Of a stretch of DNA of 64,000 nucleotides, positions 60,288 to 62,880 are shown piece after piece. Location of the stretch: the NCBI GenBank assembly GCA_003021235.1, contig PXQR01000018.1, positions 64,205 to 128,204 of the forward strand, written 5' to 3'. Made by a program: the position numbers and the translations under genes. Position 1 is the first letter of the stretch. Each line of letters starts with the position of its first letter. The DNA comes from Halobacteriales archaeon QH_6_64_20. GTDB taxonomy: Archaea > Halobacteriota > Halobacteria > Halobacteriales > Halococcaceae. The notes under the pieces are model-generated. The model did not search any database. It saw nothing but the letters and a program-made list of their open reading frames with translations, and was not told the DNA's origin.

Positions 60288-60491
60288 ATGGACAGCGATC
60301 GCACGGCGACACGACGACGCGCGCTCCGCACGACCGGACTCCTCGTGACAGCGGGACTCGCCGGCTGTGGAGCCCCTGGCGGCGGTGGCGAAGGCGGCGA
60401 AGGCGGTGAGGGCGGCGAAGGAGGGGAACAGGAAGGCGGCGGCGAAGGTGGAGAAGGTGGCGAGGGAGGCGAAGGCGAGGAAGGCGGCTGA
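60288..60491 (+). CDS. tiny Tat lipoprotein with GGE repeats
   Basis: A 67-residue frame. Residues 1-27 are a twin-arginine signal and lipobox (ATRRRALRTTGLLVTAGLAG then C). The mature part is only Gly and Glu with one Gln (EGGEGGEGGEGGEQ and similar). Lipid anchoring plus a 40-residue acidic Gly chain suggests a surface brush or metal/cation-binding tail. The GGTGAGGGAGG upstream is a plausible ribosome-binding site. The repeats could expand or shrink by slippage. Confidence 0.7.
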   Translation: MDSDRTATRRRALRTTGLLVTAGLAGCGAPGGGGEGGEGGEGGEGGEQEGGGEGGEGGEGGEGEEGG

Positions 60492-60504: not shown

Positions 60505-61362
60505 TCAGTCGCGTTCGCCGCGTAGCTCCCGCACGCGTTCGACGTTCCAGGCGTAGCTACGATCGTCTTCGGTCGGAGTTTCGAGGATCAGCGGGAGGGT
60601 TCCTATGGTCTCGTGGGTAACGATCGCCTGCATGCCCGCGTCGCCGATCTCGCCCTCGCCGATATGGGCGTGTTCGTCGGCGTTCGAGCCACAGGGGTGC
60701 TTCGAGTCGTTGAGGTGAATGCATTCGAGATGATCGAGACCGACGACGGTGTCGAACGCCTCGATAGCGTCCGCCACGCCGTCGGGGGTCGAGAGGTCGT
60801 AGCCCGCGGCGAAAGTGTGGGCCGTATCGAGACAGACTCCAACGTCGGCGGTCGTTCGGTCGAGGACCGCCTCGAGGTGGGCGAAGTCGCCGCCGAGCTT
60901 CGTCCCGCTACCGGCGTCGCTCTCGACGAGGAGCGTTACCCCGTCGGGAATATCGAGTTCGTCGATCACGCTCGCGGCGTTTTCGAGTCCGGCTTCGACG
61001 CCGGCACCGGTGTGCGCGCCGAGGTGGACGTTCACGTACTCGATTCCCAGTTCCTCCGCGGCGTCGAGTTCCTTCCCGAGGCTCGAAATCGACTTCTCGC
61101 GCAGGTCGTCTTTGGGGGTTGCGAGGTTCACGAGATAGGAGGCGTGGATCACCCATGGGCCGTCGAGTTCCCTCGAACTTTTCTCGCGGAAGCGTTCGGC
61201 CCGTTCGGCCTCGATCGGCGGCTGTTTCCAGACCTGTGGGGAGTGGGTAAAGACCTGCCCGCAGTTGCCGCCGACATCGCGCTGGCGTGAAACGGCGTTG
61301 TCGATACCGCCGGCAATCGAGACGTGCGCGCCGATACGCGTCGTCGAGGGAGGTGAGGACAT
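60505..61362 (-). CDS. nfo: deoxyribonuclease IV (endonuclease IV)
   Basis: A 285-residue TIM-barrel AP endonuclease: [20 protein letters not shown] at the start, [58 protein letters not shown] and [20 protein letters not shown] carry the three-zinc site. It cuts 5' to abasic sites in base excision repair. I use the ATG at 61362; the TATA-like GATATTTGA (about 61411-61419 on the minus strand) would give a short leader. A solitary CRISPR repeat lies about 105 bases further upstream. Confidence 0.93.
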
Positions 61363-61467
61363 GGCGATGCTTCGATCGTCGGAGACATAGTGACTTCGAC
61401 TTCCAGAGTTCAAATATCGCTATCAGGAGCGTTCGATAACGTTCGTGACCGTCTCGATGTCGATGTC

Positions 61468-61497
61468 GCTTCAACCCCACAAGGGTTCGTCTGTAAC
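61468..61497 (-). CRISPR. solitary haloarchaeal type I-B CRISPR repeat
   Basis: The minus strand reads GTTACAGACGAACCCTTGTG followed by GGGTTGAAGC: 30 nt and, as I recall it, essentially the haloarchaeal I-B repeat consensus (GTTTCAGACGAACCC...). Only one copy exists in the window, and there are no cas genes. After the repeat comes GACATCGACATCGAGACGGT, spacer-like, then GTTATCGAACGCTCCTGATA, a possible degenerate second repeat. It lies between nfo and a redoxin. Confidence 0.75.
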
Positions 61498-61523
61498 CAT
61501 ACCCAGTTCGGCGGGCATAGTGC

Positions 61524-61533
61524 CTATATTTAC
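61524..61533 (-). promoter_or_regulatory. TATA box positioned to start transcription at the CRISPR repeat
   Basis: The minus strand reads GTAAATATAG. Its centre is about 28-30 bases before the repeat's first base (61497), the normal archaeal TATA-to-start distance, so a transcript could begin at or just before the repeat. Confidence 0.5.
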
Positions 61534-61686
61534 TGCTGGGCGCGTAATGTTTCGGTCGACCTCCAATACCCGCTCAGCCCCGAAGAGTCGACGATCGGCG
61601 ACAACGGAGACCGCCCTATCGACAACTCGAACGGCCTCGACACGTCGGCCGAGGATACAAGTACCGGTACGAAACCAGGGAACACA

Positions 61687-62223
61687 ATGACAGAATCGGT
61701 CGGCCTCGCTGTCGGCGAGCAAGCCCCCGACGTGACCGCGACGCTCGTGCGCCCGACCGGCGCGACCGAACCGGTATCGCTCGCGGAACTGGTCGGCGAA
61801 CGGCCCGTGTTGCTGTCGTTTTACCCGCTCGATTTCAGCCCCGACTGTATCCGGGAGTGGTGTGCCTTCCGGGACTTCGAGTGGTTCGCGAGCGACGATC
61901 ACCTGCAGGTCGTCGGCGCGAGCCGGTCGAGTCCACGAATTCATCAGGAGTTCATCTCGCGGTTGGACCTCGGCTTTCCCCTCTTCGCCGACACGGACCT
62001 CGCGCTCGCGGAAGCGTTCGGCGTGCGGTATCGGGCTCTCGGTATCTCGGCGCGCGCCCGGCGGTCGTGTTTCCTCCTCGACGAGGATCGGGAGATCAGG
62101 TATCGCTGGGTCGGCGAACACTGGCTCGACCCGACGCGGGATGTCCCATCGATGACGGAGTTGGCGAGCGCCTTCCGCGAGGAACTCGACGTGGCCGAGG
62201 CCGACCGCTTCGGCATGGCATGA
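61687..62223 (+). CDS. peroxiredoxin-like redoxin (BCP/PrxQ type)
   Basis: A 178-residue thioredoxin-fold protein. YPLDFSPDCIREWCAFRDFE carries both the peroxidatic Cys (SPDC) and a resolving Cys five residues later, as in BCP/PrxQ. LGFPLFADTDLALAEAFGVR and SCFLLDEDREIRYRWVGEHW follow. It should reduce peroxides. I use the ATG at 61687; a TACAAGTACC element about 25-30 bases upstream recurs before the paralogue. Confidence 0.83.
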   Translation: MTESVGLAVGEQAPDVTATLVRPTGATEPVSLAELVGERPVLLSFYPLDFSPDCIREWCAFRDFEWFASDDHLQVVGASRSSPRIHQEFISRLDLGFPLFADTDLALAEAFGVRYRALGISARARRSCFLLDEDREIRYRWVGEHWLDPTRDVPSMTELASAFREELDVAEADRFGMA

Positions 62224-62349: not shown

Positions 62350-62880
62350 GTGAACGAGCCACACGGTCTCGATGTCGGCGGGCGGGCACCGGAGTTCGGT
62401 GCCTCGCTCGTGCGGAGCGATGGGACCGTGGCCGAGGTCACGCTGTCGGAGTGTCTCGGAGACGGACCGGTCCTGTTGACCTTCTGTGCGCTCGACGCCG
62501 TGCCGAGGGACCCCGAGGGGTGGTGTGCGCTCCACGACGTCGGGTGGTTCGCGAGCGACGAGAACCTACAGGTCGTCGGCGTCAGTCGGGCCGACACCCG
62601 AACCCACTGTCGATTTATAGAGCGTTTCGACCTCGGCTACCCGCTCGTCTCCGATCGAGGCGGCGAGGTGGCCGATCGCTACGGCGTGTGCTACCGGGAT
62701 CCGCGGTCGGCAACGAGCGCCGTCCGGTCGTGTGTCCTCGTTGACGAGGATCGAGAGATCAGGTACCGGTGGGTTGGCGAACACCGACCCGAGCACACGA
62801 GTACGCCCCCGCTGGGCGAGATGCACGGGGCAATCCGCCGGGAGGTGAGCACGCCGGCCGAGACGTTCGGCCTCGTCTGA
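62350..62880 (+). CDS. redoxin paralogue lacking the peroxidatic cysteine
   Basis: A 176-residue paralogue of the previous protein (QVVGVSRADTRTHCRFIERF, SCVLVDEDREIRYRWVGEHR). The active-site segment reads FCALDAVPRDPEGWCALHDV: the resolving-type Cys stays, but the peroxidatic Cys is replaced by Asp. It may be a thiol adapter or a partner of the active paralogue, or decaying. I use the GTG at 62350. TACAAGTACCG again lies about 20-30 bases upstream. Confidence 0.78.
   Translation: MNEPHGLDVGGRAPEFGASLVRSDGTVAEVTLSECLGDGPVLLTFCALDAVPRDPEGWCALHDVGWFASDENLQVVGVSRADTRTHCRFIERFDLGYPLVSDRGGEVADRYGVCYRDPRSATSAVRSCVLVDEDREIRYRWVGEHRPEHTSTPPLGEMHGAIRREVSTPAETFGLV

Follow-up and report, generated by a model that had tools for sequence, protein, structure and literature searches.

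The window, by which we mean the whole 64-kb stretch of DNA that was analysed (65% GC), contains an intact CRISPR repeat, here called R1, in the intergenic region between an endonuclease IV-like gene (nfo) and a divergently oriented redoxin-like gene (Table 1). On the minus strand a TATA-like octamer is followed by R1, a spacer-like stretch and then nfo, the start codon of which is at 61362, and the redoxin-like gene points the opposite way. Just downstream of nfo (60288-60491) there is a short open reading frame with a lipoprotein-like start and GGEGGEGGE repeats, without a Pfam match. There are no cas genes near R1, as an earlier note on this DNA had reported; cas6, cas8b and cas7 are found on another contig.

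Table 1. Features of the locus and their positions in the window (G002 is another genome of the genus; C29 is another contig of the host genome)
Feature	Position	Strand	Basis or remark
nfo, endonuclease IV-like (AP_endonuc_2)	60505..61362	-	Pfam PF01261, 141 bits; downstream of the array, same direction
Possible degenerate terminal repeat GTTATCGAACGCTCCTGATA	61421..61440	-	Position weakly supported by homology to the sequence downstream in G002
Eroded spacer, 27 nt	61441..61467	-	Homology with the G002 array's leader-distal spacer
Intact CRISPR repeat R1 GTTACAGACGAACCCTTGTGGGGTTGAAGC	61468..61497	-	Type I-B, Rfam CRISPR-DR24
CRISPR leader, type I-B haloarchaeal family	61498..61602	-	Homology to the leaders of C29 and of relatives
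TATA-like TAAATATA	61526..61533	-	28 nt upstream of R1; sequence
Redoxin-like gene	61689..62223	+	Open reading frame, no Pfam match; divergent upstream neighbour
AhpC-TSA gene	62350-62880		Pfam; tandem neighbour of the redoxin-like gene

The identification of R1 as a haloarchaeal type I-B repeat, first made from the sequence alone, is borne out by its agreement with the common haloarchaeal repeat GTTTCAGACGAACCCTTGTGGGGTTGAAGC at 29 of 30 positions (one mismatch; chance expectation in the window, 0) and by its match to Rfam RF01337 at 49 bits, where the gathering score is 35. A repeat identical to R1 over all 30 positions is present in at least 24 copies in an array of another genome of the order (G196), which adjoins a complete I-B cas operon (cas8b, cas7, cas5, cas3, cas4, cas1 and cas2); since an array of that size carries this very repeat, the T-to-A difference at position 4 is a normal array variant and not a mark of decay. 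With the functional positions of the repeat taken from PMC9458426, R1 begins with GTT as expected, has its 8-nt handle and retains both anchors, AACCC and GTGGG. It departs nowhere from the other repeats' consensus, where a rough neutral model, which assumes the ancestral state, expects about 6-7 substitutions, so that an unchanged R1 under no constraint has a probability of about 0.001-0.002 by this rough calculation.

The earlier note had described the repeat as lacking a leader, and this was wrong. Directly upstream of R1 lies a recognisable I-B leader of about 105 nt, immediately before the first repeat as in a CRISPR array, and homologous to the leaders of arrays elsewhere. In a search with 421 bases around R1, the upstream stretch was 69-78% identical to a second locus of the host, on contig C29, and to loci in relatives, the aligned portion running from TCGACCCCCTGGGG and GGTATTGGAGGTCGACGGAAACAYTATGTG to the repeat in the manner of a typical leader. 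A model of the leader and first repeat, built on sequence only, matches 119 of the 245 genomes of the order; among the 30 of these loci that were read, most of those from beyond the genus stand at the head of arrays with 10 to at least 24 repeats, the long arrays being truncated by the length of the locus. In the host's copy the leader motif TATGTG, conserved elsewhere, reads TACGCG. Over its full length the leader has diverged at roughly the rate of fourfold-degenerate sites, and its core alone looks slower. The TATA-like box was rightly noticed. The window has just five AT-only octamer runs, of which this is one, and it is specific to this genome, being absent from the other aligned leaders. 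We also considered that the leader might have been retained as the promoter of nfo, and did not adopt this idea; nfo seems to own a conserved promoter-like stretch (GATA...).

Comparative genomics places R1 at an established array site. In all three other genomes of the genus examined (G001, G002 and G003) a leader-headed orthologous array sits between lplA and the pair nfo-orf59458, with the nfo orthologue coming after the array, and a GH15 gene beyond orf59458 is clearly conserved in two of them and partially matched in G003; the synteny that the earlier note proposed to check is present in these genomes. The repeats themselves vary in number and state: G003 has one, diverged; G002 has three that are intact, together with further degenerate repeats; and G001 has three that are non-canonical and yet nearly identical to one another, which suggests that new units were copied from a first repeat that had already mutated and, so far as sequences can tell, that the G001 array grew at the lplA-nfo site. 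The G001 repeats (GTTACAGACGAACTATAGTGGGATCAATGT; L040:8646-8810, G001:C15) end in the eight bases ATCAATGT in place of the usual handle GTTGAAGC, and their processing or binding by Cas5 may be altered. None of ten more distant nfo loci carries a repeat. The claim that there is no array here thus holds for the host, which has one intact repeat and not the two or more separated by a spacer that an array requires, but not for the orthologous sites of G001 and G002, where arrays of several repeats are found.

This setting also bears on a reading of R1 as an RNA anti-CRISPR (Racr), the kind of solitary repeat unit found in prophages that is transcribed, is bound by Cas6/Cas7 and inhibits immunity. 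Racr anatomy, with a lone repeat downstream of a promoter-like element (PMC10651486), is matched by R1, but Racr units reside in a virus, prophage or plasmid, and this site lies among housekeeping genes, in an lplA-nfo-orf59458-GH15 order shared by four genomes (GH15 partial in G003). The CRISPR leader, the multi-repeat arrays of relatives at the same place, and an immediate neighbourhood in which no gene of a mobile element was recognised all count against it, and we regard it as exceedingly improbable.

What follows R1 is probably inherited in part. The 27 nt after the repeat match the third, leader-distal spacer of the G002 array at a level that 0.01% of random haloarchaeal 36-mers attain, so that the sequence after the repeat is conserved, in eroded form, in one relative. 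It is about 9 nt shorter than the G002 spacer (27 against about 36 nt) and has a different seed; this agrees with an oldest spacer that was inherited and is now eroding, and not with a guide under selection. The spacers of G001 and G003 differ from it; a resemblance to the G003 spacer is tempting by eye, and was set aside when 17% of controls did equally well. The degenerate second repeat that had been proposed (GTTATCGAACGCTCCTGATA) does not stand on its similarity to R1, against which the downstream stretch scores no higher in alignment than 74% of the random 105-nt segments drawn from the window, though its position is weakly backed by the alignment with the G002 array. None of the spacers tested has a target above chance among viruses or plasmids: exact 20-22-nt pieces of five spacers had no match in IMG/VR, and twelve spacers searched against phages gave a marginal match to a Corynebacterium phage alone (E 0.7). 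The host's spacer matches the Halopiger plasmid pHALXA01 at 26 of 27 positions (E 0.2) without an accepted PAM, and we took this as chance because 12 random 36-mers of the window matched plasmids equally well or better (E 0.01).

A regulatory role had been suggested for R1, in which a CreA-like or mini-CRISPR RNA would use its seed to guide Cascade to a host promoter, for example that of nfo, the redoxin gene or a toxin, and repress it. Such RNAs have a precedent in haloarchaea, where CreA guides require pairing of nucleotides 1-5 and 7-11 beside a TTC PAM (PMC8501985); the TATA-like box 28 nt ahead of R1 and the Cascade genes of the host are in keeping with the idea. However, the search for TTC and seed that the earlier note had called for returned no site in the whole 3.6-Mb assembly (90% complete). 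Seven more sites have the seed preceded by three bases beginning with A, C or T, none of them a PAM on the Haloferax list (PMC4946936), and the window holds no TTC-flanked seed match even with up to one mismatch. CreA is also associated with a creT toxin RNA; near R1 there is no seed target that would point to one. The seed is not conserved in G002, and G001 and G003 have other spacers. Moreover, CreA repeats are degenerate and lack the AACCC and GTGGG adaptation anchors (PMC9458426), both of which R1 retains. The regulatory reading is largely refuted for nearby targets and for targets with a TTC PAM, and overall we consider it very unlikely. In a variant to which we give slightly less credence still, the stub, once contracted, would have lost the standard leader motif, gained a TATA box from which transcription begins at the repeat itself, and become a one-repeat guide RNA, with a target that lies in the unassembled tenth of the genome or is recognised by looser pairing than that of CreA.

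The machinery and the other arrays of the host are only partly visible. Its I-B genes cas6 and cas8b lie on contig C26 together with the beginning of cas7, within which the contig breaks off. Cas1 was not found in the four assemblies (77-90% complete), nor Cas3 in the host's own (90% complete), the host operon being cut by the contig end; with C26 ending where it does, the absence of cas1 is not established. Comparison with the host's own arrays was another of the checks proposed. The array on C47 (L005:1373-1576, G000:C47), which runs off the contig end, has a different repeat, GTTTCAGAAGTACCAGGCTRGTGTTGAAGC, with the same 8-nt handle. C29 carries a second leader and array. This second leader and mini-array (L007:5010-5300, G000:C29) recurs in G002 (L042:165-500, G002:C55), in both cases immediately before an MNT-like nucleotidyltransferase gene and then a HEPN-like reading frame, as read from the translations; the two copies are 93-99% identical through to the first repeat and 72-82% identical in the genes that follow. 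A truly solitary repeat, GTTACAGACGGACCTCCGTGGGGTTGAAGC, is found elsewhere on C29 (L007:4095-4124, G000:C29:34094-34123, minus strand), without a recognisable leader and near a PIN/AbrB-like gene pair. In G001 a full array with the same leader family (L108:1-900, G001:C29; about 12 copies of GTTATAGACGAACTCTAGTGAGGTTGAAGC) starts at a contig end.

Our essential contention is that the locus is most likely an orphan type I-B CRISPR array next to nfo that has contracted but kept its leader. The leader, the intact repeat, the three orthologous arrays, the leader-distal spacer shared with G002 and the partial I-B cas operon of the host support this, and the earlier suggestion of a last remnant of an array is upheld by the leader, the synteny and the old spacer. 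Against it stand the single intact repeat, which is not an array by definition today, the failure to find Cas1 and Cas3 in these incomplete assemblies, the divergence of the whole leader at about the rate of fourfold-degenerate sites, the different repeat of the host's other array and the spacers without targets. We propose that the array site was already present between lplA and nfo in the ancestor of the genus, and that after contraction there would remain the leader with a single intact repeat and the oldest spacer in eroded form. The leader could still be transcribed, and cleavage by Cas6, 8 nt from the end of the repeat, would produce an RNA with a 5' GTTGAAGC handle and what is left of the spacer. 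With its first three bases and both anchors intact, the repeat would allow Cas1-Cas2-Cas4, should the host have them, to insert new spacers, and relatives do seem to have gained spacers here in this way. Judged by these features, the stub is possibly still able to take spacers, and would be expected to do little else now.

The same origin would also suit an inert, decaying remnant, neither usefully transcribed nor able to gain spacers. The spacer shortened to 27 from about 36 nt, a full leader at near-neutral divergence, the change of TATGTG to TACGCG and the lack of Cas1 from four incomplete assemblies all point that way; but R1 is unchanged where the rough model expects some 6-7 substitutions, the TATA-like box is plausibly placed, and relatives have gained repeats at this site. 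We consider inertness a real possibility, albeit one that we lean against.

With the contracted array as the preferred reading, a suggestive 'solitary repeat' is settled as a leader-bearing array stub, and a practical rule follows: the leader and the orthologous site in relatives should be checked before a regulatory role is proposed. The genus offers, at a single site of the chromosome, a small natural series in which arrays grow, their repeats drift and arrays contract. The locus has similarities with the solitary repeat units of the Racr type, in having one isolated repeat after a promoter-like element, but differs from them in its chromosomal housekeeping site, its true leader and the arrays of relatives in the same position. 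It resembles CreTA in that a TATA-like box precedes an ectopic repeat and a spacer-like stretch, and in that the haloarchaeal host has I-B Cascade genes; unlike CreTA, it has no target for its seed and PAM in the assembled genome, its repeat is not degenerate and keeps both anchors, and it has a true leader and does not lie beside cas6-cas8b. From haloarchaeal orphan type I-B arrays (CRISPR-DR24) it differs in having one intact repeat, an eroded spacer and no adjacent cas genes, yet it shares with them the leader family, the repeat (30/30 to G196), the orientation and the spacer-like stretch after the repeat, and it is to this known kind that the locus belongs.
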